From assembly GCF_035987325.1 (NCBI RefSeq), contig NZ_CP108488.1:9424001-9488000 (forward strand): 64,000 bases of DNA. Reading direction: 5' to 3'. Of this stretch, positions 17,874-40,141 are shown in pieces. Every line of letters begins with the position of its first letter. Positions within the stretch are counted from its first letter, which is position 1. Made by a program: the position numbers and the translations under genes. Source of the stretch: Streptomyces sp. NBC_01244. GTDB lineage: Bacteria > Actinomycetota > Actinomycetes > Streptomycetales > Streptomycetaceae. The notes under the pieces were generated by a model. It did not search any database, was not told the origin of the DNA, and saw only the letters and a program-made list of their open reading frames with translations.

Positions 17874-18353
17874 CTACGGTTCCTCTGGGTCGTCGGCCAG
17901 AGCGCCGACGCTGTAGGTGTCGTAGACGTCGAGGAGGTCCTCTTCGGCGTCCAGCAGGATCTCCGGCGGCATCCGGCACACCAGAGCCGTGAGCCGCACC
18001 AGGGCGGTCAGCCCCGGCCCGGCCTCGTGCCCGGCCAACGGCCGGGCATGGGGCCACTCGTCCGCCAGCTGCCGCAGGCCTGCGCGCCGCGCCCGGTCCT
18101 CCGTCGTGCCGGGACGATCGTCCGACACGTGCCACAGGCCTTCGGTGGGAATGGGCCGGCAGGCCCGCACCACGCGTCTGCGCAGTCCGGGATCCGCCCC
18201 TTCCCACGATGCCGGTTGGACGAGACCGCCCAGAGCGGCGGATGCCAGGGCCTCCGCCTCCGCGAGTTGGTCCGGCGCGAACCCGACCGCGGTGAGACCG
18301 TAGGGCGGCTCACCGTGCCAGTCGAGCACGCACACGACCTGGGGGCGGGTCAT
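17874..18353 (-). CDS. Presumed immunity or partner protein of the RHS protein
   Basis: 159 residues, acidic, with no signal peptide. It begins MTRPQVVCVLDWHGEPPYGL; the C-terminus ends in a Glu/Asp-rich helix (PPEILLDAEEDLLDVYDTY). Its ATG at 18353 overlaps the TGA of the RHS gene (ATGA), the same layout as the ALF toxin/immunity pair. I do not recognise the family. An in-frame start nine bases upstream (18362) exists, but the overlap start is favoured. The immunity role is inferred from position. Confidence 0.65.
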   Translation of the reverse strand: MTRPQVVCVLDWHGEPPYGLTAVGFAPDQLAEAEALASAALGGLVQPASWEGADPGLRRRVVRACRPIPTEGLWHVSDDRPGTTEDRARRAGLRQLADEWPHARPLAGHEAGPGLTALVRLTALVCRMPPEILLDAEEDLLDVYDTYSVGALADDPEEP

Positions 18354-21300
18354 CCGACGCACATCTCCGTGCGGCCCTCGAGGTAGCGGGTGTCGTAGTT
18401 GCGCACGGTCGAGCGGATCTTGGTGCCCGAACCGTGGGGACCACTGGCGATCATGAATTCACCCACGCCCACGTAGTAGTGGCAGGCGCCCTTCGGACCC
18501 CAGTTGGCCACGGCACGCGCCTTGTACTTGTTGTTGCCGGACTCGTAACCGGTGGTTCCGATCTTCTCCCATCCGTACCAGCGGGACCGGTAGAGCGTCG
18601 CCCGGATCGAGAAGCTGGGAACCTTCTTCTTGCACTTCAGGTCCGCGTGCACGTTGACCCGGTTGTTGTTCGTGTGCGACTTGTGCGGACGGTCCACGAA
18701 GGCGCCGCAGCCCCATCGGTTGGCACCGTACTCACCGCTCAGGTCGGTGCAGTTGACGCTGTCGGCCGTGCAGTACTCGTACGCGTTGGCGTTGCCGCCG
18801 TACACGGGGTCGACGGACAGGAACCGCCCGGTCGAGGGGTCGTACTGGCGTACGCCCATCAGGATGACACCGGCCGGCGTGTCGGAGCCGCGCTGATAGG
18901 CGGCCAGCCAGTTGTAGCGCGCGGTCGCGGTACCGGCGCGGACGTTGCCGAACTCGTCGGTGTCCGCCACCGAGAGGGGCTTCTGCGGATCCAGCGGCAT
19001 GGCGACACCGGCGTCGCCGTGCAGGTCGGTGAACTGCAGCACTGTGTCCCCGGCGGATCCGGCGGATCCGGCGGATCCGGCGGTTCCGGTGACGGCGGCC
19101 AGCTCGCCCGACAGCGAGGAGACATTTCGGGTCCGCAGGTTCGCGGCGGTGTCCTCCACCGTCCACGACGGGCTGTCCGACGCGTCCCGGTAGTGGTTCA
19201 CCGAGCGCACCGAGGTCAGCACCGCGCCCTGCGCGTCGAGCGTGTCGGCCGTCCACGACGCGAGCCGGCCCTGGGCGTCCAGCTCCCAGGTCTGGCGGTG
19301 GTCACCGGCCGTCTGCGAGCGGACCAGGTCGTTCGCGTAGTAGCCGAACGTGCTGCCGGGCTTGGTGAGCGTGCGGCCGAACGCGTCGTACGTGATGCCC
19401 GCACCGGTCATCCGGTCCGCCGCGTCGTACGTGTAGTCCGTCGTGCTCTGGACCGGGCCGGCGCCCTCGTCCCGCGTGGAGACGAGCTTGGTGCGGTTGG
19501 CGTTGGCGTCGAAGGTGTACGTGCGGTGCTGCTGCCCGTACGCCCCGGACTCCTCGACGTCGGTGAGGCGGCCCGTACGGTCGTAGCCGAACCGCTGGCC
19601 GTTGCCCGCGCCGGCGACGCGGGCGGCGGAGCTCGCCTGACCGTGCACCGTGGGGACGGCGACATCGGTGAGGACGGCGGCGCCGTCCACGTCACGGGTG
19701 TAGACGCGGGAGGTGGTGAAGCCCGTCTCGTCCTTGACGGTGGCCAGCGTGTATCCGCCCGGAAGCGTCTCCCCGGACACCTCGCCCGAGGCGTCGTACG
19801 AGGCCCCGAAGGTACCGGCGGCCGAGTCCGTCATCGATGTGGGCAGCCCGCGCGGCTCCTTGTCCGTGTCGTACGCGTAGGTCACGGTCGAGGGCGCGGA
19901 GTCGGACACCTTGACCGCCCGGCCGAGCGTGTCGAACTCGGTCGTGGTGACGTTGCCCGCACCGTCGTCGTAGCTCACGAGCCGGCCGAGATCGTCGTAG
20001 GAGTAGACGGCCGTCTTGCCGCCCGCGGCGACGGTGGCCGGCTTGCCGCTGACCGGGTCGAACGTGCGGACCGTCTCGGGAACCGCGGTGCCGAGGCCGC
20101 CGGTGACGGCCGTGCGCGTGACGCGGCCGACGTTGTCACGGGTGACCGCGGTGGTGCGGGTCGTGGAGCCCGCCTTCTCCGTGGTCCTGGACACCTGGCC
20201 GAACGCGTCGTACTCGTACACCGACGTGATGCCCGAGGACGCGTCGGCCGGGCCCACCGAGCAGACCAGGTCGGCCCACTCGGGACGGCCCGCGCACGAG
20301 CCCGTGCCACCCGCGGTGTAGTACGTGGTGACCCGGGTGCCGGCGGCCCCGCCCTTGGGCAGGACGGTCGAGGTGACCCGGCCCTGCGCGTCGTAGGCGG
20401 TGCTGGTGACGAGGTTCAGGCCGGCGGGGTCCTCGGCCGTGGTCAGGGTCAGCCCCTTGGCCCAGTCGTACGTGTACTTCGTGACGCGCGTGTCGAGGTC
20501 ACCGGAGCGTCCCGGCACCGTGGCGCCGACCGTGACCGTGGTGGCCCGGCCGCTGACCGCGGCATCGGACGGCCGGCCCTCGTCGTACAGGCTCGCGGAG
20601 TGCAGCCGCGCCGGAACCTCGGTGCCTGCGGGGAGGTCGGCCGCGCCCTGCTGGAGTTCCACGACGTGCAGCGGCCCGTAGGAGTGCAGCTCGCGCAGAC
20701 CGTCCGCGCTGTACTCGGCCGTCTCCGCCAGGAGCGCGGCACGCTCCGCCGCGCTCGCGCCTTCGATGCCCAGGGGGGCCAGCTGCTCCAGGCCCGCACC
20801 GCCGGTGGCCAGAGCCAGATCGCGGTTGGCGGAGGAGAGGGCGTACACGATGGCGCCGTCGGCGTTGTAGCCGGTGGTGGAGATGCGGCCGCCGGGGGCC
20901 GCGGTGTTGACCTCGCGGCCGGATGCATTGACGTAGCTGACCGTCGCGCGCTTGTAGTCGGCCGCGGTCAGCGCCTCGCCGTCGTGTCCGGCGGGAACGG
21001 CGTCCGGCGGGAAGACGGCGGTCGCGTCGGTCGGGGCGTCGCTCTGGCCCCACACCGCCACGTCCGCCGGGCCCAGCTTGTAAGGCGCCTTGGTGCCGGT
21101 CAGCGGGACGTCGTACACCATCGAGGTGGCGATCGAACCGCCGCTGGTCTCCGACTTCGACCCTTGCTTGAGGGAGGGGCGCGAGGCCTTCAGCAGCATG
21201 CCCTCGCCCGCGGTGGCGGCGTCACCGGCCTTGCCGTAGGTGAAGGTCCACGGCAGCTCGGTGCCCGGCATCATCCAGTACACCCGGTTGGCCGAGTCGT

Positions 21301-24300
21301 ACGAGTACTGCACCTGCGTGGCCTGCGACAGGTTCGGGTCCCACTGCTGGCGCAGCCGGCCGTCCTTGTCGTAGCGGTACACGGACACGGAGCGCGCCGT
21401 GGCCGCGGTCGCACCGGGGGCGGTGGACCAGTGCTTGATCTCCCGGACCTGGCCGGCGAAGTCTCCGAAGTCGGCGGCCACGCTGTAGCCGGTGGCCGTG
21501 GTGACCGTCGCGTAGACGAGCTCCAGCCGCTCGCAGCCCGCGGTGGCGGGGTTCGCCTCGCAGGACGCGGCCGTGGCGGCGGTGCTGGGCGCGATCAGGT
21601 ACTTCGGTCGGGCCAGGACCTTGCCGTCGACGGTGACCTTCTCCGACACCACACGGGTCGTGGAGTTGTCGGTGGGCAGGGCCGTCGAAGTGACCTGCCA
21701 GCTCTCCGCCGCCGGGTCGACCTTGGCGAAGGAGGTGACGACGCCCTCGTCGTCCTTGAGGGTGAAGGAGCCGGTGAGCGAACCGGTGAGGGTCAGGTGC
21801 TCCGAGCCCTCCTCGGGCTTCCAGCCGCCGCCGGAGGTGGCGGTGAAGCCGACGGCCCCCTCGGCGAGGACGACCTCGACCGAGGTCGGCGACGTCTTGC
21901 GCAGACCGGTGTAGGAGGATTGGGTGATCTCGGCGTAGATCCCGGACACCCACTCGGGGCCGAAGATCTTCACCTGGCCGTCGTCCTCGGGGTGGTCACC
22001 CCGGGAGTAGGCGGTACGGGTCACCGAGGTGCCCGCGCCGGACGCATCGGTGGCGTCCAGCGTGAAGTCACCGGTGAGGCTGTTGACGGAGCCCGGCCCC
22101 ACGGGGAGCTCCGGGGAGGCACCGGCGGCGCGGTCGACGGTCACGGAGACGCCGGGGGAGGCCTCGGTGGCCGAGCCGGCGCTGAACACGGCCCGTACGT
22201 CGACGGGTCCGTCCTCGGCGAGCGTCTTGGTGATGTCCCAGGTCAGAGGCGCGGGCTTGCCGCCGCTGACGGACACCGGCCAGGAGCCCGGCGCGACGCC
22301 CGTGGAGTTGACCCGCACGTCGGCGACGGGCACGTCCTTCCACGCGTCGGTCTCGCCGCGGCGGTACTGGTAGCGGACGCCGGTGTACGAGGTGTCGCCC
22401 TGGGCCATCAGACCGGCACGGCGGGCCGGACGCTCGCCGTCGGACGGGGCGGTGATGGCCGCTCCCTTGCCGGCGTTGAAGGAGTACACCGTGTCGCCGG
22501 ACACGTTGCCGGCCGCGTCGCGGGTGTGGGCGGTGACGGCGTGCGCGCCGGCCCGGAAGCCGAGCACGGCGCTGACCGGGGTGCCGGCGGTGGCCGAGGT
22601 GACCCATGCGCCGCCGTCCAGCCGGTACTGGATGTCCTTCACGTCCGAGGCGGGCGGGGTGAAGGTGAAGGTGCCCGAGAAGTTCCCGTTCCCGTCAGGG
22701 GTGCCGGACCACGCGCCGGCCGGGAAGGCGCTCGAAGCGACCGCGGTCACGCCCGGCTTCGCGGTGTCGACGGTGAAGCTCTGCCAGGCCGACCAGGTGC
22801 CGTTCCAGGTGGAGCCGTCGTACACGGCCGCGCGCCACTTGTAGCTGCCCGGGGCGAGCGGGGTGGCGGTGGTCCAGGGAGCGGCCGTGCCCGAGGCGGA
22901 GAAGGCGGACTTCCCGGTCTGCAGGGCGGCCGTACCGCTCGCGGTCCAGATCTCGTACGAGAGCTGGACCGTGTTGCCGTCGGCGTCGGTGGCCTTGCCC
23001 GTGAGGGTCGGCGTCGTGTCGGCCGTGGCCGTGCCGGACAGCGGGGAGACGGGGGCGGCCGCACCCGGCTTGGTGTTGTAGCTGACCGTCAGCGACGGCT
23101 CGAGGGAGGCGTTGTGTGATCCGTCGGTCTGGTTCGCCGAGTGGTAGCGGCGCCAGGTCAGGGGGTCCTTCTCGTCCACGGCGGCGATGCGCACACCGTA
23201 GTTCGGCTGGCCGTCCGCCCAGGCCTGGACGATCGCGTCGACGTCCCAGGAGACGTGCCCGGCCGGGCACGTGGTGGCGTTGTACCCCTTGGCGGCGGTG
23301 GTGACGACGGCGCCGGTGGCGGTCGTCGCGGGCTGGTTGGCCCAGGTGATCGCGGAGGGGTCCCAGGCGGCGGTGACCCGGCGCACCTCGTTGCCGGAGT
23401 TGGCCGTCGAGCAGGTCGAGGAGTACTTCGAGTACAGGCGCAGATCCGTGTCGAGGATCTGCTTGCCCTTGTACTTGTCGACATTGAACTGCAGGAACGA
23501 CCGCGCCTTCTCGGCGCCGTCGTACGTACCGGACTTGAGCTCGGTCGAACCGCGCTGGCTGGTCAGGTAGTCGTCGTACTGGATCCAGGTGTCGGTGACC
23601 GGGCCCATGAGCGAGTCGGTGGGATCGATCGTCACGGGATAGGTGAGCTTCGGGTCGTTCAGGAACTCCCGGCTCGGCTTGAGGACCAGGACCTGTCCCT
23701 TGCCGTTCTTGCCCGGTTCGACCTCGACCTCGACGGGCGCGATGTGCTCGGCGTCGCCGGAGGCGCGGTCGTAGGAGGAGTCCCACATGACCGGGGCCGG
23801 GGCGGTGGCCTTGGCCTGCTGGGACGTGTCGTTCCAGCGCAGCCGCTTGTCGGTGGTTTCGGTGAGCTTCAGACCGCTCGCCTCGACCGGAATCCGGTAC
23901 TCCACCGGACCCTTGGGAGCCTCGTGCAGCACGACCGAGTGGGAGAAACCTTCCTTCAGGGCGGTGACGACCAGGTCGCCGCCGCCCTCGACGGCGTTCC
24001 TGTACGTCGCGGTCGAGCCCTTCAGCTCCGGCTGCGGGAGCTTGCCCTGCCAGCCGATGCCGAGCGTGTGCTTCCCGCGCCCCGCCTTGACCAGCGGCTC
24101 GCCCGTACCGCCGTCGGAGAGCGCGATGTCGGCGGCGGCGGCCTTCGGGCGGACGGTGTCACCGGTGTCGACCAGGGTGGTGTCGACCTTCTGCCAGCGG
24201 CCGCGGGCGTCCTTGACGCGCACCGGACCGGTGAAGGACTCCACGCTGGTCACGCCACCGGGCTCGGCGTACGTGGTGCTGGAGTCGGTGCGCTCGCCGG

Positions 24301-24544
24301 TGATTTCGATCCGCCGGTTCTGCAGCCGCGCCATCAGGAAGGCGGAGGCGGCGTCCGCGGCCTCCGCGGGACCCAGTGCGGCGGCGGGTGCGGCCGGGGG
24401 AGCGCTCACAGGGCCGGCGGCGGCAACCGGGCCGCTCAGCATCGACGCGGCGGTGATGACGGAGGCCGCTATCGCGGTCCGTCGTATCCACGCGGGCGGG
24501 GCCGCGAGGTGTCGGCCTGCGGGGACAGGCGACCGTTCTCTCAT
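18350..24544 (-). CDS. Giant secreted RHS-repeat protein with DNRLRE domain and cysteine-containing tip
   Basis: 2064 residues with a signal peptide in the first 45 (TAIAASVITAASMLSGPVAAA). A DNRLRE-type stalk domain covers about 300-480 (TWIQYDDYLTSQRG, KARSFLQFNVD, ITWANQPATT), followed by Ig-like/FN3-like segments. RHS/YD repeats run from about 1050 to 1850 (YDAFGQVSRTTEKAG, YTYDAADRMTGAGITYDAFG). The RHS core lies at about 1850-1925, ending VRQYDPSTGRFLSVDPVYGG and NAYEYC. The tip of about 128 residues starts after LSGEYGANRWGC, has four Cys and aromatic beta strands (LYRSRWYGWEKIGTTGYES), and does not look like a standard nuclease toxin. A Gly-Ser-Ala linker is encoded by tandem 9-base repeats at 19052-19087. 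A putative immunity gene is coupled at the stop. Confidence 0.9.
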   Translation of the reverse strand: MRERSPVPAGRHLAAPPAWIRRTAIAASVITAASMLSGPVAAAGPVSAPPAAPAAALGPAEAADAASAFLMARLQNRRIEITGERTDSSTTYAEPGGVTSVESFTGPVRVKDARGRWQKVDTTLVDTGDTVRPKAAAADIALSDGGTGEPLVKAGRGKHTLGIGWQGKLPQPELKGSTATYRNAVEGGGDLVVTALKEGFSHSVVLHEAPKGPVEYRIPVEASGLKLTETTDKRLRWNDTSQQAKATAPAPVMWDSSYDRASGDAEHIAPVEVEVEPGKNGKGQVLVLKPSREFLNDPKLTYPVTIDPTDSLMGPVTDTWIQYDDYLTSQRGSTELKSGTYDGAEKARSFLQFNVDKYKGKQILDTDLRLYSKYSSTCSTANSGNEVRRVTAAWDPSAITWANQPATTATGAVVTTAAKGYNATTCPAGHVSWDVDAIVQAWADGQPNYGVRIAAVDEKDPLTWRRYHSANQTDGSHNASLEPSLTVSYNTKPGAAAPVSPLSGTATADTTPTLTGKATDADGNTVQLSYEIWTASGTAALQTGKSAFSASGTAAPWTTATPLAPGSYKWRAAVYDGSTWNGTWSAWQSFTVDTAKPGVTAVASSAFPAGAWSGTPDGNGNFSGTFTFTPPASDVKDIQYRLDGGAWVTSATAGTPVSAVLGFRAGAHAVTAHTRDAAGNVSGDTVYSFNAGKGAAITAPSDGERPARRAGLMAQGDTSYTGVRYQYRRGETDAWKDVPVADVRVNSTGVAPGSWPVSVSGGKPAPLTWDITKTLAEDGPVDVRAVFSAGSATEASPGVSVTVDRAAGASPELPVGPGSVNSLTGDFTLDATDASGAGTSVTRTAYSRGDHPEDDGQVKIFGPEWVSGIYAEITQSSYTGLRKTSPTSVEVVLAEGAVGFTATSGGGWKPEEGSEHLTLTGSLTGSFTLKDDEGVVTSFAKVDPAAESWQVTSTALPTDNSTTRVVSEKVTVDGKVLARPKYLIAPSTAATAASCEANPATAGCERLELVYATVTTATGYSVAADFGDFAGQVREIKHWSTAPGATAATARSVSVYRYDKDGRLRQQWDPNLSQATQVQYSYDSANRVYWMMPGTELPWTFTYGKAGDAATAGEGMLLKASRPSLKQGSKSETSGGSIATSMVYDVPLTGTKAPYKLGPADVAVWGQSDAPTDATAVFPPDAVPAGHDGEALTAADYKRATVSYVNASGREVNTAAPGGRISTTGYNADGAIVYALSSANRDLALATGGAGLEQLAPLGIEGASAAERAALLAETAEYSADGLRELHSYGPLHVVELQQGAADLPAGTEVPARLHSASLYDEGRPSDAAVSGRATTVTVGATVPGRSGDLDTRVTKYTYDWAKGLTLTTAEDPAGLNLVTSTAYDAQGRVTSTVLPKGGAAGTRVTTYYTAGGTGSCAGRPEWADLVCSVGPADASSGITSVYEYDAFGQVSRTTEKAGSTTRTTAVTRDNVGRVTRTAVTGGLGTAVPETVRTFDPVSGKPATVAAGGKTAVYSYDDLGRLVSYDDGAGNVTTTEFDTLGRAVKVSDSAPSTVTYAYDTDKEPRGLPTSMTDSAAGTFGASYDASGEVSGETLPGGYTLATVKDETGFTTSRVYTRDVDGAAVLTDVAVPTVHGQASSAARVAGAGNGQRFGYDRTGRLTDVEESGAYGQQHRTYTFDANANRTKLVSTRDEGAGPVQSTTDYTYDAADRMTGAGITYDAFGRTLTKPGSTFGYYANDLVRSQTAGDHRQTWELDAQGRLASWTADTLDAQGAVLTSVRSVNHYRDASDSPSWTVEDTAANLRTRNVSSLSGELAAVTGTAGSAGSAGSAGDTVLQFTDLHGDAGVAMPLDPQKPLSVADTDEFGNVRAGTATARYNWLAAYQRGSDTPAGVILMGVRQYDPSTGRFLSVDPVYGGNANAYEYCTADSVNCTDLSGEYGANRWGCGAFVDRPHKSHTNNNRVNVHADLKCKKKVPSFSIRATLYRSRWYGWEKIGTTGYESGNNKYKARAVANWGPKGACHYYVGVGEFMIASGPHGSGTKIRSTVRNYDTRYLEGRTEMCVG
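19052..19087 (-). repeat. Four tandem 9-bp repeats inside the RHS gene
   Basis: The unit GGCGGATCC occurs three times exactly and a fourth time as GGCGGTTCC. On the coding strand it gives the linker TAGSAGSAGSAG. Because the unit is a multiple of three, slippage would lengthen or shorten the linker without breaking the frame. Confidence 0.8.
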
Positions 24545-25860: not shown

Positions 25861-26066
25861 TCCTCCACCACCTGGAAGGCCCGCTCGGGGCAGTTCGCCA
25901 CCGCCTGCCGCAGAGCGTCGGTCATCTCGGCATGGCGGCTCTTCGCCTCGGGGACCTGCGCGTAGCCCTCGTCGTCGAAGTCGACGGTCTCCGGGAGGAA
26001 GGAGAGACAGCGGGCGTGCCCCTGACAGTGATGGGAGTCGATCCGGATCCGGTACATCGCACTCAC
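25857..26066 (-). CDS. Ferredoxin of the [3Fe-4S] P450-partner type
   Basis: 69 residues. The pattern CQGHARC near the N-terminus with a late Cys (ANCPERAF) gives the three-Cys set with a non-Cys residue at the second position, typical of actinobacterial 3Fe-4S ferredoxins that donate electrons to P450s. The acidic middle (VDFDDEGYAQV) is also usual. GTG 26066 overlaps the P450 stop (GTGA); an internal ATG at 26057 is an alternative. It probably serves the P450 immediately upstream; no ferredoxin reductase is encoded nearby. Confidence 0.88.
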   Translation of the reverse strand: MSAMYRIRIDSHHCQGHARCLSFLPETVDFDDEGYAQVPEAKSRHAEMTDALRQAVANCPERAFQVVEE

Positions 26067-27226
26067 CGTCCGATCCGCAGGGTGAGCGGGCCCAGACCGT
26101 GCCAGGGATCGGTCGGGTCGGTGCGGGAGAAGTCCGGCACGACGGCCAGGAACTCCTGTAGGGCGACGACCAGTTCCCGCCGCCCGAGGTTGGAAGCGGC
26201 ACACCGGTGGAGGCCGACGCCGAACGCGAGGTGCCGGTTGTCCCGGCGATCCAGGACGATGTCGTCGGGGTTGCCGTAGGCCTTCGGATCGCGGTTGCCG
26301 GCGCCGAAGACGAGCACGACCCGGTCACCGGCCTTGATCTTCTGGCCGGCCACTTCGGTGTCCTGCACGCAGGTGCGTGCCATCGCCTGTACGGGAGACA
26401 GCGTGCGCAGGAACTCCTCCGCCGCCGCCGGTATCTCATCGGGATGCTCCCGCAACCGCGCCTGGGCCTTCGGGTGCTGTGCGAGAAACCACAAGCTGGA
26501 CCGAATGGCCCAGGCCGTCGTGTCCAGGCCGGCGAGGAACAGCAGGTAGCAGAAGGAGAGCAGCTCGTCGTGCGTCAGCTTGCGGCCGTCGATCTCGGCG
26601 ATCGAAAGGCGATGGATCAGGTCGTCTCCGCCAGGGTCCTCACCCCGGGAGCCGAGCAATGCGTCGAAGTAGTCCATCACCTCGCGGCCCGCGGCGCGGG
26701 CGCGCTGCGGGTCGGCCGAGCGCTCGTAGACGATGTCGTCGATCCATCGGTCGAACAGGGGCCAGTCCTTCTCGGGGAACCCGGCCAGACGACTGAAGAC
26801 CATCGTCGACATCGGCCTGGCGAACTCGTGCGAGACGTCCGCCACCTCCTGGGCGGCAACCTCCGTCGCAAGGTGCCGCGCACTTCGGCGCATGTCCTCG
26901 TCCAGGCGCTCGACGGCCTTCGGCGTGAACAGGGGCAGGAGGATCTTGCGATAGCCGGCGTGGTCCGGGGGATCGATGTCGACCGGGATGAGCGGCACAT
27001 CGGTGCCGAACGGGGGGAGCAGCATCGACGGTGCGACGGAGAAGGTCTGCGGGTCGTGCTCGACGGTAGAGATGTCCTCGGCCCGTGTGAGGAACCAGAA
27101 CCCCCCGTGCCGGTCACTGCGTCCCACGGGGCACTGTTCGCGCAGGTCCCTGTAGGTGTCGAACACGGTGTCCAGCGCGGGACCGTGGAAGTCGAAGTCC
27201 TGCTCGGTGGTCCGGTGTTCTGGCAT
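26063..27226 (-). CDS. Cytochrome P450
   Basis: 387 residues, a soluble bacterial P450. The I-helix oxygen-binding motif is LFLAGLDTTAWAI, the ExxR is in AAEEFLRTLSP, and the heme-thiolate loop is FGVGLHRCAAS. It has no membrane anchor. AAGGA lies upstream of ATG 27226. It is coupled to the ferredoxin by a GTGA overlap and follows the glutamine amidotransferase gene after 63 bases that contain a strong stem (27254-27284). The substrate is unknown; context suggests a gamma-glutamylated amine made by the upstream enzymes. Confidence 0.92.
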   Translation of the reverse strand: MPEHRTTEQDFDFHGPALDTVFDTYRDLREQCPVGRSDRHGGFWFLTRAEDISTVEHDPQTFSVAPSMLLPPFGTDVPLIPVDIDPPDHAGYRKILLPLFTPKAVERLDEDMRRSARHLATEVAAQEVADVSHEFARPMSTMVFSRLAGFPEKDWPLFDRWIDDIVYERSADPQRARAAGREVMDYFDALLGSRGEDPGGDDLIHRLSIAEIDGRKLTHDELLSFCYLLFLAGLDTTAWAIRSSLWFLAQHPKAQARLREHPDEIPAAAEEFLRTLSPVQAMARTCVQDTEVAGQKIKAGDRVVLVFGAGNRDPKAYGNPDDIVLDRRDNRHLAFGVGLHRCAASNLGRRELVVALQEFLAVVPDFSRTDPTDPWHGLGPLTLRIGR

Positions 27227-27253
27227 GGAAGGGTCCTTCCGGATGGTCAGCGG

Positions 27254-27284
27254 GCGGCGGCGGCCTGCAGGAGGCCGCCGCCGC
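27254..27284 (-). terminator. Strong stem between the amidotransferase and P450 genes
   Basis: GCGGCGGCGGCC at 27254-27265 pairs perfectly with GGCCGCCGCCGC at 27273-27284 across a 7-base loop. It lies just after the amidotransferase stop, inside the operon, so it may attenuate or stabilise rather than fully end transcription. There is no T-run. Confidence 0.5.
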
Positions 27285-27289
27285 GTCCG

Positions 27290-28165
27290 TCAGAGGTCCT
27301 CGTCGCGGAAGTCGGCGCTGACCTCGACGCCTCGCAGGTCGTCCAGGGTGAGGTGGTGGGCGGGCGGGCCGAAGGGGTACTGGGAGACGGCCTTGCCATC
27401 GGCGATGACCAGCAGTTCCCCGGGGTCGAGCAGCCGCCAGTCGGGGTCGGCGTCCAGCCGCTCGCTCGCGACGACCCAGGCAGGGATCTCCTCATCCCCG
27501 TCGGCGACCCAGCTGGCATCCGCGCGCTGGTCGAGCGGGCGGGCGCCCCGTCGGCGGCTGCCGAAGCCCCCGCCGTCGGGGCTGAGCACCCAGAGCTCGC
27601 AGTTGGCCGGGTAGCGCAGCGCCCACAGGCGGCGCGGCTCGGCGAGCACGAAGTTGAGCGAGAAGATCGGGATCTCGGCCGCCATCCGCCGCACCGCCGA
27701 GATGATGCCCTCGGTGGTGTCGCCCACCCGCAGGATCTCCGCGGAGATGAAGGCGAACGCCGTCTCGGAGTCGGTCGCACCCTCGACGTGTGCACGGTCC
27801 ACGTCCGTCAGCCAGGAGTCGATGGTGTCCACACCTCGGATGCACCCGTTGTGCGCAAAGAGCCGGTCGTGGATGTCGAACGGGTGGCAGTTGTGCACGT
27901 CCACCTCGCCGGTCGTGCCGTAACGGACATGGCTGACGATGGTGTGCGACACGACCTGGCCGGCGGCTTCGGCGAAGTCCTCGTTCTTGAAGGCGCCGAT
28001 CGGAGAACGGTCCCGGACGGGCTCGTCACCGAGCGAGAACCAGCCGAAGCCGGTTCCGTCCGGCTGCTTCCGGCTCTGCTCACTGAAGCTGAACAGCGAG
28101 TCGAGCAGCCAGTGGGATCCCTGGACGCGCGGGCCGCCGGTGGTCAGGGCGAAGAGTCTGCACAT
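27290..28165 (-). CDS. Class II glutamine amidotransferase (GATase-2, Cys nucleophile)
   Basis: 291 residues starting MCRLFAL, with Cys2 as the N-terminal nucleophile after Met removal, as in YafJ, EgtC and GlxB-like proteins. Conserved pieces include DGTGFGWF, SHTIVSHVRYGTTG, NCHPFDIHDRLFAHNG and TDSETAFAFI. Such stand-alone domains hydrolyse a gamma-glutamyl amide or supply nascent ammonia to a partner. The ATG is well supported (GGAGG, 7 bases). It sits directly downstream of a glutamine-synthetase-like gene, so removal of a gamma-glutamyl group is an attractive role, but this is inference. Confidence 0.88.
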   Translation of the reverse strand: MCRLFALTTGGPRVQGSHWLLDSLFSFSEQSRKQPDGTGFGWFSLGDEPVRDRSPIGAFKNEDFAEAAGQVVSHTIVSHVRYGTTGEVDVHNCHPFDIHDRLFAHNGCIRGVDTIDSWLTDVDRAHVEGATDSETAFAFISAEILRVGDTTEGIISAVRRMAAEIPIFSLNFVLAEPRRLWALRYPANCELWVLSPDGGGFGSRRRGARPLDQRADASWVADGDEEIPAWVVASERLDADPDWRLLDPGELLVIADGKAVSQYPFGPPAHHLTLDDLRGVEVSADFRDEDL

Positions 28166-28249
28166 GAGAGGTCCTCCTTGAACGGAACAGTGGAGCGAGC
28201 GGTGGAGTGGTCGGTGGAGCGGTGGGGTTGCCGGGATGCCGCCGGCCGG

Positions 28250-29647
28250 TCAGTAGCGGTCGCGGACGGCAGCCACGACGGCGTCCGGGCCGGCGCCCTC
28301 GAAGAGTTCGACCTCTGCCCGGCGAACGGCTGCGATCGCCTCGAACAACGGGTCGCCCATGGCTTCGCGGAGCACGGCCGAGTCCTGGAAGTGCTTGACG
28401 GACTCCTGGAGCGACTGCGGCAGCCGCGGCTGACCGCCGCCGAGAGCGGGATCGCCTGACACAGGGGCCGGAAGCTCCAGGCGGTCGCGGATCCCGGCCA
28501 GCCCGGCGGCGATCACCGCGCCGGTCACAAGATAGGGATTGGCCGCCGGGTCGAAGCACTTGAGCTCGGCGTTCGCACTGTGGGGCTCGTTCGGCGGACC
28601 CGGGACGAAGCGCAGCGCCGCCTCCCGGTTCTCCACCCCCCAGCACTGGAACGCTCCGGCCCAGTGGCCCGGCTGCAGCCGGAGGTAGCTGGCCACCGAC
28701 GGTGCTCCGACGGCCAGCAGCGCGGGCAGCTCGCGCAGGACGCCGGCCAGGAAGGCGGAGCTCTGCCTGGTCATCCCGGCGGCGGCATCGCCGCCCTGGC
28801 ACAGGTTCCGGCCCCTCTCCCACAGGCTCAGATGGAGATGGCCGCCGTTTCCGACCCCGTCGGCCGTGACCACCGGGGCGAAGACGGGAGTGAGTCCGTT
28901 GCGCAGGGAGACCCCTCGAATGGTCTCGCGTACCAGCACGGACAGATCGGCGGCGCCGATCGGGTCGCTCGGGGCGACCGACACCTCGAACTGGCCGGGG
29001 GCGTACTCCGGATGCAGCTGCAGCACCTCCACATCCTGTGCGGAGAAGGCCGCGAGCAGCTCGGCCAGATATTCGGACAGGTCGATCAGCCGGCTCATCC
29101 CGTAGGCGGGGCCAAGGGTCGCGTACGCCGGATCCGGGTCGGCCGGTTGGCTGTCGCGCAGCACCACCCACTCCGTCTCGAACCCCATCAGTAGTTCCAG
29201 GCCCGCCTCTGCGGCCCGGCCCGTCATCCGGCGGGTGAACTGGCGCTGGCAGGCGGGGTGCGGCAGGCCCTGCTGGTCGTACCGGTCCGCCGGGGCCCAG
29301 GCCCAGCCCGGCTGTGCGGCCAGCACGGTCAACCGGTCCAGGTCGGGGAAGAGCCGGAGGTCTCCGACAGGTCCGCCGATGTGCGTGCTGGTGGTGACCG
29401 AGTCGTCCAGCAGGAACACGTCGAAAACGGGGGACATGCCGACGCCCTGCTCCGCGGCCTGCCCGAGGCGGCCGGCGGGCACGGCCTTGACCCGGGTGAT
29501 GCCGCTGTTGTCGACCCAGGTCAGCGCGACACCACGGACGTCCTGAGCGGTGAGCCGGGCGGCCTCGCGCCGGGCCCTGCTGCTGTCGCCCCGCGGCACG
29601 GAAGTCTCCGTCACCGCAGCGTCTTCTTCCCTCGCGTTCATGATCAT
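28250..29647 (-). CDS. Glutamine-synthetase-like amine ligase (gamma-glutamylation type)
   Basis: 465 residues of the GlnA fold. Visible motifs are the catalytic Glu strand GFETEWVVL, HPEYAPGQFEVSVAP, the ATP-site GNGGHLHLSLW, and FQCWGVENREAALRFV near the C-terminus. The N-terminal VRGVALTWVDNSGITRVKAV is typical of FluG/PuuA/GlnA3-like paralogues, not of true GlnA, and the adenylylation loop of GlnA is not seen. Such enzymes usually join glutamate to an amine. ATG 29647 overlaps the aminotransferase TGA by one base; an ATG six bases later has better spacing to GGAAGG. Confidence 0.86.
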   Translation of the reverse strand: MIMNAREEDAAVTETSVPRGDSSRARREAARLTAQDVRGVALTWVDNSGITRVKAVPAGRLGQAAEQGVGMSPVFDVFLLDDSVTTSTHIGGPVGDLRLFPDLDRLTVLAAQPGWAWAPADRYDQQGLPHPACQRQFTRRMTGRAAEAGLELLMGFETEWVVLRDSQPADPDPAYATLGPAYGMSRLIDLSEYLAELLAAFSAQDVEVLQLHPEYAPGQFEVSVAPSDPIGAADLSVLVRETIRGVSLRNGLTPVFAPVVTADGVGNGGHLHLSLWERGRNLCQGGDAAAGMTRQSSAFLAGVLRELPALLAVGAPSVASYLRLQPGHWAGAFQCWGVENREAALRFVPGPPNEPHSANAELKCFDPAANPYLVTGAVIAAGLAGIRDRLELPAPVSGDPALGGGQPRLPQSLQESVKHFQDSAVLREAMGDPLFEAIAAVRRAEVELFEGAGPDAVVAAVRDRY

Positions 29648-30819
29648 CACGCCTTCCTTCCCATCGCTCCAGTCGCGAAGTCCCGGACCGCGAGAGCGAC
29701 TCTCTCCACCTCGCCGTCGCTGAGTTCCGCGTAGGCCGGCAGGCACAGTCGGCGAGCGGCGCCCGCCGACCGGCTGGTGACCCTGCTGCGGTACTCCATG
29801 TGCTGGAAGGCAGGCTGGTCCGGGAGCAGATAGGGGTAGACCTGCTCGGTCTCGATGCCACGACCCGCCAGAAATTCGCCGAGCCCGACCGGGTCCGGGC
29901 AGGCCACCGCGAACTTGTAGTAGGCGTGTTGGTACCCGGGCAGCACCTGCGGCGCCGCCACCGGCAGGTCGGCGAAGGCCTCGGAGTAGTGCGAGGCGAT
30001 GGCGGAGCGGCGTGCCAGCCACGCCGGTTGGCGCTCCAGCTCCAGGGCGATCAAGCCGGCGTCGAGCTCCCCGAGCCGGGCCCGGGCGCCCCGGTCGCGG
30101 TGGACGTGCCGCTGACCCCTTTCGCGTCCCATGTCGGTGAGCCGGCGCAGCCGGGTGGCGCGCTCGGCGGAGTCCGTGACGACGGCGCCGCCGTCGGCGA
30201 GGCCGCCGACGCACTTGCCGACCCAGAACGAGAAGCAGCCGAAGTCGCCCCAGGTACCGGCCGCTCGACCGTCGAGGGCCGCACCGGCGGCCTGGGCGCA
30301 GTCCTCCACCACGGCCAGGCCGTGTTCGCGGCCGACGGCCAGGATTTGGGGCATGTCGGCCATGTGGCCGTGCAGATGGACGGCGATCACCGCCCGGGTC
30401 CGAGGGGTGATCGCAGCGCGCAGCGCCTGCGGGCACAGGGTGAGCGAAGGTTCGGCCACATCCACGACCACGGGCACGGCCCCGGCTTCACAGACCGCGA
30501 ACGCCGTCGCGGCGAACGTGGCGGCAGGCAGCACGACTTCGTCCCCGGGCCGCACCCCGGCCACGCGCAGGGCGAGCGTCAAAGCCTGCGTGCAGGAGGT
30601 GGTGGCCACGGCCGCCCCGCCCCAGTGCGCGGCGATCCGCTGCTCCAGGCGCGCGGTCTGCGGCCCGAAGTGGAATGTCCCGGCGTCGATCACCTCGTCG
30701 GCTATTCGATGCACCTCCCGCCGGAGGGCGCGTACCCGGCGGGCATGGCCCTCGGCCGGGATGCTCCAGCTCCGGGACGGCACCGCGGGTGCGGCAAGGG
30801 TGGGTTGAAGGAGCGCCAT
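29647..30819 (-). CDS. DegT/DnrJ/EryC1/StrS-family PLP aminotransferase
   Basis: 390 residues. The pattern matches sugar/aminocyclitol and AHBA-type aminotransferases: ALTLALRVAGVRPGDEVVLPAATFAATA, VVVDVAEPSLTLCP, VIAVHLHGHMADMP, VVEDCAQAAGA, and the PLP-lysine segment GCFSFWVGKCVGGLADGGAVVT. Residues after that (MGRERGQRHVH, then LGELDAGLIALELE) fit as well. ATG 30819 is preceded by GAGGAG; upstream in-frame codons would add 40 residues without a ribosome site. It is the first gene of the operon and probably installs the amine that the ligase then glutamylates. The substrate is unknown. Confidence 0.9.
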   Translation of the reverse strand: MALLQPTLAAPAVPSRSWSIPAEGHARRVRALRREVHRIADEVIDAGTFHFGPQTARLEQRIAAHWGGAAVATTSCTQALTLALRVAGVRPGDEVVLPAATFAATAFAVCEAGAVPVVVDVAEPSLTLCPQALRAAITPRTRAVIAVHLHGHMADMPQILAVGREHGLAVVEDCAQAAGAALDGRAAGTWGDFGCFSFWVGKCVGGLADGGAVVTDSAERATRLRRLTDMGRERGQRHVHRDRGARARLGELDAGLIALELERQPAWLARRSAIASHYSEAFADLPVAAPQVLPGYQHAYYKFAVACPDPVGLGEFLAGRGIETEQVYPYLLPDQPAFQHMEYRSRVTSRSAGAARRLCLPAYAELSDGEVERVALAVRDFATGAMGRKA

Positions 30820-36721: not shown

Positions 36722-38221
36722 GTGATGGTGGAGGCCGGACGTTGTCTGGGCAGGGCGGTGGAGTTCGCCCTCGGGATCCAGGCCGGTGACGGCGCCTGGT
36801 CTGTCCCCTCCGAGCCACGCATCCTGGAGAACGCCGTCGTGGCCGGCTCCCTGGCCGGGCTGGAGCGGGCGCGGCCCGCGCGGGAGAGGGCGCTGCGGTG
36901 GCTCGAAGGCGCCTGCCCGCAGCAGCACGACCCGTTCGCGGCCGCCGCCGACCAGTGGCTCGCCGCCCTGCACCGCACGCATGACCTCACGGCGTTCAGC
37001 CCGGGGGTTTCACCGGGAGGGCCACATGCCCGGCGGGCGCTGTACCTCGACACCCTGGGCTGTGCGGTCGGCGCCCCCGGGGCCGATCCGCACCGATTGC
37101 TCCGCCAGGCCAGAGCCGCGCTCGGGCCCGATCGCGGGCGGCGGATCAAACCGTGGCAGCGGGCCATGCTCCTCGCCTTCGAGGCCATCGCGGGTGTCGC
37201 TCTGGGCATGCCGCTGCCCCACCACACCCTTCAGGAGTGGGAGCGGGCGCAGTCACCGGACGGCTCGTTCTACGGGATGCCGCTGGTGACGGGGATGCTG
37301 CACCTCGCCCTGACCCGGACGGCCCCGGACCACCACATGACCAGGCGGTGCAGAGAGGGCTTGCTCGCGGCCCAACAACCCGACGGCACATGGCGGTTCC
37401 TCGTCAGTGACGTGTGGGACACCGGCCTGATGGTCCGCGCGCTGCGTGGGCACGCCCGCTTTGGCGCGGTCGCCCTCCCCGCCGCTCTGGACTTCCTCGC
37501 CTCGGCGCAGAAGCAGGACGGCGGCTGGGCCTGCGCGGCTGCGCTCGACTCCGACAACGACACCACCGGCAACACCCTGCTCGCACTGGCCGGAACCGAC
37601 CGGGCGGACCAAACCCTCAATGCCGCCGCCCGCTACGCGCGCAGGCACCAGACACCCGAAGGCCTGTGGACCACCTGGCATTCCAGCGACGACACCCCGG
37701 CCCCCGACGTGGTCGCCCACATGGCCGCCGGCATCCGCGCGGCCGCGCTGCCCGGAGTCGACCTCGCCCCCGCCCGCCGCTGGCTGGCCTCACACGCCAC
37801 CGTCGAAGGCTGGACCTCGGACTGGTACCTCCCGCCGGCCTACGGCGCCGCCGAAATCGGGCCGGCGCTCGCCCCGCACCCCGTCAGCCGCACCGCCACG
37901 CCGGGGCTCCTGGCCTCCCAGCGGGCCGACGGCGGCTGGTCCCGGATCCCGGGCGAGCCCTACTCCAGCCCGACGGCCACCGGCCTTGCCCTCACCGCCC
38001 TCACCTCCGGCGGACTCGGCCCGCAGGACACCGCCGTCGCGCGCGGGCTGCGCTTCCTCATCGACTCCCAGAACCCCGAAGGTAGCTGGACCGACCGCCC
38101 GGTCATGTACGGCCCCAGGCCCTTCCTCACCGTCACCACCACTCAGGTCCACGCCCTGGCCGCCCGCGGACTCCGTGACGCGCTGACCGCCGCCCCACAC
38201 CGTGACGGAGCCCGCCCGTGA
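36722..38221 (+). CDS. Class II (protonation-type) terpene cyclase with DxDTT motif, drimenyl-diphosphate-synthase-like
   Basis: 499 residues built of alpha-barrel repeats of the squalene-hopene/class II diterpene cyclase type. QW-like motifs recur (QSPDGSFYG, QQPDGTWRF, QKQDGGWAC, QRADGGWSRI, QNPEGSWTD). The acid motif is DSDNDTTGN at about residues 276-284, which contains D-N-D-T-T, i.e. DxDTT rather than the DxDD of hopene or copalyl cyclases. To my knowledge DxDTT marks bacterial drimenyl-type sesquiterpene cyclases acting on farnesyl diphosphate. There is no class I DDxxD motif. It is coupled by GTGA to a HAD phosphatase gene. The start (GTG 36722 or ATG 36725) has no clear ribosome site. 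The product is predicted, not proven. Confidence 0.8.
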   Translation: MMVEAGRCLGRAVEFALGIQAGDGAWSVPSEPRILENAVVAGSLAGLERARPARERALRWLEGACPQQHDPFAAAADQWLAALHRTHDLTAFSPGVSPGGPHARRALYLDTLGCAVGAPGADPHRLLRQARAALGPDRGRRIKPWQRAMLLAFEAIAGVALGMPLPHHTLQEWERAQSPDGSFYGMPLVTGMLHLALTRTAPDHHMTRRCREGLLAAQQPDGTWRFLVSDVWDTGLMVRALRGHARFGAVALPAALDFLASAQKQDGGWACAAALDSDNDTTGNTLLALAGTDRADQTLNAAARYARRHQTPEGLWTTWHSSDDTPAPDVVAHMAAGIRAAALPGVDLAPARRWLASHATVEGWTSDWYLPPAYGAAEIGPALAPHPVSRTATPGLLASQRADGGWSRIPGEPYSSPTATGLALTALTSGGLGPQDTAVARGLRFLIDSQNPEGSWTDRPVMYGPRPFLTVTTTQVHALAARGLRDALTAAPHRDGARP

Positions 38222-38877
38222 CCTCACTCCCCGCCGCAGCGCCCGACGAGGACGCCACTCCGACCGAGGTGCGCGATTTCCATACAGCTCATCAGCCGGC
38301 AGCGTGCGTCTTCGACTTCGACGGCACGCTCGTCGACACCAGCACGATCAACATCGACGCCATCCGCGCGACCCTCACCGCTCTCGGACTGACCGTCCCC
38401 GAGCCGTGGCTGCGCGAGGCGCCCCTGGCCGACCTCACCGCCCTGCGCGACCGGCTCCGCATCGACCTGGGCCTGTCACTGCCCTGCACCGACCGGGAGT
38501 TCGTCGACCGGACCCGGTCCCACTGGCTCACCCGCACCCACCTCGCACAGCCGGTGCCCCGGGTGGCGGCCCTCGCCCGACACCTGGCCACGACCATTCC
38601 CGTGGCGGTGGCCTCGGCCAATGACGGGCAGGTCGTCCGCGCCGGCCTCACCGCCGTCGGACTCGCCGACCTCTTCGGCGTCATCGTCGCCCGCGAGCAC
38701 GTCACCCGCCTCAAACCCGCCCCCGACGCCTACCTCCAGGCCACCGCGCAGCTCGACCTCCCACCCGGCCGGTGCCTCGCCTTCGAGAACACCGACGAAG
38801 GAATCGCCGCCGCTCTCACCGCCGGCATGCCCGTGATCGACGTCCGCCGCGCGAGCTGGACCATCCGCCTCCCCTGA
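38218..38877 (+). CDS. HAD-family phosphatase coupled to the terpene cyclase
   Basis: 219 residues. Motif I is VFDFDGTLVDTS (nucleophile and acid Asp), motif II VASAND, motif III RLKPAPD (Lys), and the metal loop FENTDEGIAAA. This is a beta-phosphoglucomutase/phosphatase-like subfamily I protein with an alpha-helical cap. GTG 38218 overlaps the cyclase TGA (GTGA). In known HAD-terpene-synthase-beta fusion enzymes the HAD domain removes diphosphate from the cyclised product to release drimenol or albicanol. Here the two activities appear to be split onto coupled genes. The first 25 residues are a disordered leader. Confidence 0.85.
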   Translation: MTSLPAAAPDEDATPTEVRDFHTAHQPAACVFDFDGTLVDTSTINIDAIRATLTALGLTVPEPWLREAPLADLTALRDRLRIDLGLSLPCTDREFVDRTRSHWLTRTHLAQPVPRVAALARHLATTIPVAVASANDGQVVRAGLTAVGLADLFGVIVAREHVTRLKPAPDAYLQATAQLDLPPGRCLAFENTDEGIAAALTAGMPVIDVRRASWTIRLP

Positions 38878-39466: not shown

Positions 39467-40141
39467 TCAGTCGTAGAGGAGAGAAGCAGAGGAGGTTGTC
39501 GCCTCTTGGCGGCCGGGCGTGGTGTACGCGAAGTTGAGCACGGTGCGCCGCAGCCCCGGACGCCGGAGCGGGGTGACGCGGTGGGCGGTGAGGTCGCTCC
39601 GCAGGAGGTAGCCGTCGGCCGGCCGGTGATGGATACGGCGGGCGCCGGGCGCGTCGAGGGCCGCGAGGTCGCTACGGCCGGGGTGGAATTCCAGGAGTCC
39701 GCCGTCGGTGTGGTGTGGCGGGGCCTCGAGGAAGAGGACCAGGGCGAGCGGGTAGTCGTCGGTGTGCGCGCCATGGGTGTCGCCGGGGCGGTGCAGGACG
39801 TTCAGGACGTGGCGTTCGACGGGGTCGTGGACGGCGACGACGGCCTCGCCCAGGAGCGAGGAGAGCAGCTGCAACATGTCCTGGTCCGCGTAGAGGCGCG
39901 TGATCACTGGAGATGTACGGGCGATCCGGTCTCCGCCGAGGGTGGTCATGTGCCGGGGGCTGTCGTCCATGCACGGCATGCGGAAGTCGCGCCGCACCGC
40001 GTCGGCCTCCAGCCTCCGCGCCTCCCATGAGAGGTCGGCGAGCCCGGCGGGGCTGATCAGCCCGGGCAGGGCGACGTAGCCATCGGCGGCGAACCGCCGG
40101 CGCAGATGCTCCCAGCTCGAGGGCGCGGGCAACGAGATCAC
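39467..40141 (-). CDS. Fe(II)/2-oxoglutarate-dependent dioxygenase-like protein
   Basis: 224 residues. The metal-binding motif is HGAHTDDYPLALVLFLE, giving His-x-Asp, so a hydroxylase-type facial triad rather than a halogenase Gly/Ala variant. The distal His and the oxoglutarate Arg fit LTAHRVTPLRRPGLRRTVLN. Upstream segments (GYVALPGLISPAGLADL, RLYADQDMLQLLSSLLGE) match a subgroup near the HalD/ArpA-like enzymes that modify free amino acids. GTG 40141 has GAGGG 11 bases upstream. An ATG with a better ribosome site (GGGGAGG) begins about 50 bases further up in another frame, so the N-terminus may be damaged. Substrate unknown. Confidence 0.7.
   Translation of the reverse strand: MISLPAPSSWEHLRRRFAADGYVALPGLISPAGLADLSWEARRLEADAVRRDFRMPCMDDSPRHMTTLGGDRIARTSPVITRLYADQDMLQLLSSLLGEAVVAVHDPVERHVLNVLHRPGDTHGAHTDDYPLALVLFLEAPPHHTDGGLLEFHPGRSDLAALDAPGARRIHHRPADGYLLRSDLTAHRVTPLRRPGLRRTVLNFAYTTPGRQEATTSSASLLYD

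Follow-up and report, generated by a model that had tools for sequence, protein, structure and literature searches.

Two overlapping genes on the forward strand of a 64,000-nucleotide stretch of Streptomyces sp. NBC_01244 (contig NZ_CP108488.1, positions 9,424,001–9,488,000; called the window below) were found to encode a class II-type beta-gamma terpene cyclase (36722–38221) and a HAD-IA phosphatase (38218–38877). Some 53 kb separate the pair from the end of the 9,513,468-base contig, in a genome of 10.0 Mb and three contigs. The two proteins very probably act as a class II prenyl-diphosphate cyclase and a dedicated terpenyl phosphatase. A C15 drimane-type product of this module is somewhat favoured, and a two-gene terpene alcohol module is the explanation towards which we lean overall.

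The cyclase gene was read as an open reading frame (ORF) of 499 amino acids (aa) with a GTG start. This start is uncertain, as a GTG at 36728 gives the 497 aa of the database entry (P0003) and the frame is open for up to 523 aa. The Pfam domains SQHop_cyclase_C and SQHop_cyclase_N were detected, and an AlphaFold2 (AF2) model and fold searches showed a complete beta-gamma protein with the class II alpha-barrel fold. The DNDTT motif at residues 278–282 (37553–37567, +) occupies the canonical DxDD place: in a full-length profile alignment, D280 stands in the place of the catalytic acid and aligns with the Asp altered in the D303 mutant structures of SsDMS, a drimenyl diphosphate synthase. A plain pairwise phmmer alignment with SsDMS had given SDVWDT as the counterpart of the catalytic motif, which was corrected by the profile alignment. 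In a 48-row family alignment D278 was invariant, and D280 and T281 were present in at least 90% of the rows. The same held for D329 (invariant) and H333 (at least 90%) of a DVVAH sequence at residues 329–333 (37706–37720, +), which we take to be the equivalents of D447 and H451 of squalene-hopene cyclase. By fold and central Asp the protein belongs to the class II cyclases, and it is predicted to cyclise a prenyl diphosphate or similar substrate. The first-pass annotation, which had proposed a class II cyclase with DNDTT in place of DxDD and a HAD phosphatase partner, was borne out on these points.

A database search with the cyclase gave 138 proteins at E ≤ 0.001 (the best 120 listed). By pattern search, DxDTT was found in 60 of the 71 entries P0003–P0073 (the window's own entry included); eight others had DxD[TS] with a different fifth residue, and three (P0041, P0069, and P0072) had neither form. 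DxDD strings occurred among these entries only in P0020 and P0072, elsewhere in the chain. The nearest solved structure was SsDMS (451 residues aligned, about 22% identity), and the bacterial class II diterpene cyclases PtmT2, Rv3377c, and Tpn2, which are likewise beta-gamma proteins, gave lower structural and profile scores. Nearest in fold to SsDMS, the window cyclase did not fall into the SsDMS clade: its family formed a group apart (SH-aLRT 99 on each side) in a tree from a short search with squalene-hopene cyclases as the sole outgroup and without the sequences of PtmT2, Rv3377c, Tpn2, and AsDMS.

The phosphatase gene encodes 219 aa from a GTG start, and was assigned to Pfam HAD_2 and, by fold search, to a CbbY/beta-phosphoglucomutase-like fold. 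HAD core motifs I–III are present, motif I being DFDGT at residues 33–37 (38314–38328, +); D33, D35, and K166 were invariant and S133 was found in at least 90% of 40 aligned rows. The cyclase stop codon overlaps the HAD start in a GTGA sequence (38218–38221, +), as the first-pass annotation had read it. Among eight intact close pairs, two of them from S. atratus, seven allow an overlap of 4 nt, one of these with an earlier start also open, and the remaining pair shares 7 nt.

The cyclase-HAD pairing was confirmed to be real and beyond chance. A HAD gene was located directly 3′ of the cyclase in 9/9 loci with a cyclase of at least 60% identity, a count that leaves out two short cyclase remnants without HAD (L003 and L040). 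These loci were the window, L005 (Streptomyces sp. WM4235), L030 and L031 (assigned to S. chumphonensis and Kitasatospora aureofaciens), L036 and L037 (S. atratus), L038 (NBC_01591), L039 (NBC_00376), and L032, which has a truncated cyclase. None of the 12 loci below 50% identity (L021–L029, L033–L035) had a HAD gene beside the cyclase. On the level of protein clusters, cyclase and HAD had longest contigs of equal length in 22 of 33 cases at cyclase identities of at least 58%, in one of two at 51–57%, and in one of 36 below 51%, where sharing a contig is not the same as adjacency and the HAD side covers the 120 best HAD matches. Since the gene surroundings differ between strains, several of them containing transposases, what is conserved as a unit is the pair alone.

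In searches of genomes, a match at E ≤ 1e-40 was found in 10/392 and 7/324 Streptomyces genomes (overlapping draws) and in 9/394 genomes of the family, the own genome being counted in each case, and in 1/70 genomes of the genus to which G557 belongs, this one being G557; a threshold of E ≤ 1e-25 gave 1/394 genomes of the class, the own genome counted. A scan of genome contigs recovered one relative. Decayed forms were also seen. In L032 (9331–10879, +), from another genus of the family, the cyclase match stops near residue 315 directly before a retained HAD gene. In the window genome itself (contig 1 near 5.149 Mb; L003, 1339–1832), pieces corresponding to cyclase residues 246–297 and 366–421 lie on the same strand as a piece of a HalD-like protein, so that the locus is present there a second time in decayed form.

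The HAD family of the window was also found attached to SsDMS-like cyclases, and is thus common to two cyclase families. Plasmids of NBC_01362 and NBC_01650 carry a DTDTA cyclase followed by HAD with an annotated 4-nt overlap, and the same pair is present, unannotated, in NBC_00046. In L053 (DVDAS) and L054 (DVDTS) the gene order is cyclase, cytochrome P450, HAD. Cyclase and HAD form one chain of 745 aa in L052 (G149; P0246, assigned to Streptomyces sp. NBC_00654), and a second single-chain entry is P0247 of NPDC006482. These two strains are sisters in the tree, so that their C-terminal HAD fusions perhaps reflect a single event; a sequencing slip in one of them is less likely. In L056 (NBC_01445; 3972–6221, +) an HAD domain of PF12710 is N-terminal to an SsDMS-like DTDTT cyclase in one chain, unlike the other fusions. 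Nine further cyclase-HAD pairs had longest contigs of equal length. A HAD search of 295 Streptomyces genomes gave four matches at E ≤ 1e-35, and in all four the HAD either adjoins a class II cyclase or forms one chain with it. A HAD match was found in 26 plasmid records, 13 of them at 57% identity or more, 12 of which abut a class II cyclase; the other 13, at about 41% identity or less, fall outside this adjacency count.

The first-pass annotation had regarded the pair as a split form of the fused HAD-TCbeta drimenol and albicanol synthases. Such a split would account for HAD and class II chemistry occurring together and for DxDTT in both systems, and the SsDMS-like family does include cyclase-HAD fusions; nevertheless we consider it very improbable. 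The window cyclase is a complete beta-gamma protein and comes first in order, whereas AsDMS is described in PMC9128629 as a HAD followed by a single beta domain. The two aligned over 277 residues with 13% identity, and the PDB sequence matches of the window HAD were CbbY, the MtlD phosphatase, and beta-phosphoglucomutase-like proteins. The HAD of AsDMS was absent among the best 50 fold-search rows for the window HAD, which excludes nothing. Besides, the L052 gene differs from the NBC_01362 pair by a 2-nt gap directly before the overlap, which is easier to reconcile with two genes having fused than with one having been split.

For the two-gene module we infer substrate, product, and order of phosphate removal as follows. 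With D280 as the acid, the class II cyclase would protonate the terminal double bond of a prenyl diphosphate, most likely farnesyl diphosphate; the chain would close to a decalin, and a base would end the cascade with the diphosphate retained, giving a bicyclic drimane-type diphosphate. D329 and H333 may keep D280 in position, a role presumably played by the equivalent residues of squalene-hopene cyclase. The HAD would then hydrolyse the cyclised diphosphate, perhaps via the monophosphate, to a free bicyclic alcohol, either in two steps like AstI and AstK between them or with a stop at the monophosphate, as is described for AacA in PMC13244436. The gene overlap would keep cyclase and HAD in step, and the two genes are met as a unit in differing surroundings. 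This is the route from farnesyl diphosphate to a free alcohol that had been suggested from the sequence, and the nearest structure being a drimenyl diphosphate synthase supports it as an inference. The C15 assignment is further supported by the HAD family shared with the group that holds two proven drimenyl diphosphate synthases, SsDMS and CavC (PMC11035983), and no polyprenyl synthase was found within about 1.35 Mb of the pair in the window genome.

The assumption that DxDTT is the mark of bacterial drimenyl-diphosphate cyclases was not supported: the two Streptomyces drimenyl diphosphate synthases looked at, SsDMS and CavC (PMC11035983), have DxDD, PMC9128629 ties DxDTT to class II diterpene synthases, and the window family keeps DxDTT next to either a HAD or a class I synthase. 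The substrate of the window cyclase is therefore a proposed one, and a number of observations weigh against a C15 drimane-alcohol module. No characterised member of the window cyclase family was found. Seven relatives of about 40% identity (L022, L025–L029, and L034) belong to clusters that also contain genes for a class I synthase, a P450, and a short-chain dehydrogenase/reductase, as judged by Pfam for the L022 genes. The only terpene synthases matched in PDB by the L022 class I enzyme were Stt4548 (E 2e-19) and Sat1646, which use copalyl diphosphate according to PMC9814573; geranylgeranyl diphosphate (GGPP) may therefore be the substrate of the family. Prenyl synthases were likewise not noticed in the class I-linked clusters, so that their absence near the pair carries less weight. 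Five polyprenyl synthase homologues are present in the window genome, some of them GGPP-synthase-like, and a supply of GGPP is therefore possible; as a guide to chain length, these five and the L033 synthase scored below the NCBIfam cut-offs, with one exception that passed the family 2 encapsulin cargo model. Genes for a prenyl synthase and a class I synthase are located about 1.5–3.6 kb downstream of the HAD gene in L031. The HAD has the fold of sugar phosphatases, and motif IV reads FENTDEG in the window, with E-N and a further D two residues on, where beta-phosphoglucomutase presumably has E-D. Finally, a HAD of 73% identity on an NBC_00984 plasmid (L063, 4926–5573, +) has an open frame and no listed cyclase beside it; transposases are nearby, and the short cyclase remnant L040 lies elsewhere on this plasmid.

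The same two-step module acting on GGPP to give a bicyclic diterpene alcohol of labdane, halimane, or clerodane type is a real but less likely possibility. The class I-linked relatives, the resemblance of the L022 synthase to copalyl-diphosphate users, and the naming of DxDTT as a class II diterpene synthase motif (PMC9128629) speak for it; the closer structural and profile match to SsDMS than to PtmT2, Rv3377c, or Tpn2 and the HAD family shared with SsDMS-like cyclases argue for the C15 substrate instead. In L021 (49% identity) the gene after the cyclase encodes a class I enzyme resembling selinadiene synthase.

Among 121 SsDMS-like sequences, the fourth motif residue was Asp in 0/13 HAD-linked members compared to 50/108 others (Fisher p 0.0007, ignoring kinship), where HAD not seen among the 108 is not the same as HAD absent. 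The remaining residues among the 108 were Cys (34), Thr (13), Ser (6), Ala (4), and Gly (1), and no HAD was seen for the 13 Thr members. Twelve of the 13 HAD-linked members belong to one clade, which holds one Asp member (P0257). A tie between the fourth residue and HAD is thus only a lead from sequence comparison. In the window family DxDTT persists where no HAD adjoins, and the motif therefore indicates neither partner nor substrate there. Other arrangements were seen in these families. The DNDTT window-family cyclase of L033 (9689–13223, +) stands in tandem with a DVDDT SsDMS-like cyclase. P0296 of Streptomyces violascens (847 aa) joins class II cyclase domains to a terpene synthase domain of class I (PF19086) in one chain, with DVEG in the motif column. 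In L057, L061, and L062, DTDCT SsDMS-like cyclases lie beside a wax-ester-synthase-like acyltransferase (by Pfam in L057), with a class I synthase in front of the cyclase in L057 and, judged from the sequence start, in L061.

The convergent neighbour of the pair (39467–40141, −) encodes a HalD-family iron/2-oxoglutarate oxygenase that is kept in Streptomyces sp. WM4235 (82% identity). It was excluded from the mechanism because it was seen in two loci only, plus the piece in the own-genome remnant, and its membership of the module is uncertain. With His-Thr-Asp where Halogenase B has His-Trp-Gly, it resembles a hydroxylase more than a halogenase. Its kinship to lysine halogenases and hydroxylases, together with the Pfam placement of the cyclase among squalene-hopene cyclases, might suggest a meroterpenoid or squalene-like substrate and a HAD working in a separate reaction. 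This we regard as unlikely, given that the nearest fold is a 500-residue prenyl-diphosphate cyclase, that the related cyclase in L033 lies behind a prenyl synthase and IspH (with DXS- and IspG-like genes noted by eye), and that the strict phosphatase partner fits a phosphorylated product. Further away in the window, a row of genes for a P450, a glutamine-amidotransferase-like protein (by eye), a glutamylputrescine-synthetase-like protein, and a DegT-type aminotransferase (26063–30783, −) is possibly another small pathway, and an open frame of 1994 aa was found at 18350–24334 (−).

Bacterial class II sesquiterpene cyclases are, to our knowledge, few in number. A mainly actinobacterial class II enzyme family without characterised members, close to squalene-hopene cyclases, is described in PMC9814783. 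In the open-licence literature searched, no beta-gamma DxDTT family with an overlapping HAD, no HAD family common with SsDMS-like cyclases, no beta-gamma-HAD fusion, and no report on the SsDMS-like systems of L051, L052, L053, L054, and P0247 was met. Overlapping genes, an operon, and fusions form a series suggesting that very little need change at a 4-nt overlap for a fused terpene alcohol synthase to arise. From the gene overlaps in two cyclase families, the fusions at the C-terminus and (with another HAD subfamily) at the N-terminus, and HAD-TCbeta, we tentatively propose that HADs have joined class II cyclases several times in every geometry, that a change from DxDD to DxDT may accompany diphosphate hand-over to HAD, that the window family might be a further bacterial drimane-alcohol route, and that the HAD-linked families may supply candidates for the synthesis of orphan rearranged drimanes, the olindenones among them. 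Streptomyces olindensis makes rearranged drimanes; according to PMC12453296 their cyclase gene has yet to be identified, and a counterpart of the gene in the Streptomyces drimenol producer was not found. The two cyclase families with a dedicated phosphatase offer a concrete candidate set for olindenone-type products.

A class II cyclase with HAD is already known both as separate proteins (AstC/AstI/AstK) and fused (AsDMS). In Aspergillus oryzae, AstC makes a diphosphate from which the separate HADs AstI and AstK take the phosphates successively, as in the proposed module (PMC5024094 and PMC13244436); this system differs in being fungal, in the inactive HAD domain of AstC, and in having two phosphatases compared to one in the window. 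AsDMS-type enzymes likewise combine class II cyclisation with a HAD phosphatase and have DxDTT, which is not specific to them, but they are one chain with HAD first and a beta domain only (PMC9128629, PMC12365925). SsDMS (structures 7xq4, 7xr7, and 8zg5) and CavC share the beta-gamma class II architecture, the full-length structural match, and the genus Streptomyces with the window cyclase, and, with the proposed module, a diphosphate product and a separate hydrolase gene; they differ by their low identity, by DxDD instead of DxDTT, and by a Nudix hydrolase partner (PMC11035983; L050). The SsDMS-like cyclase-HAD systems of other Streptomyces (L051, L052, L053, L054, and P0247) have the same HAD family and, in L051, an annotated 4-nt overlap, but another cyclase family with DxDT[AS] or DxDAS and, in L052 and P0247, a single chain.
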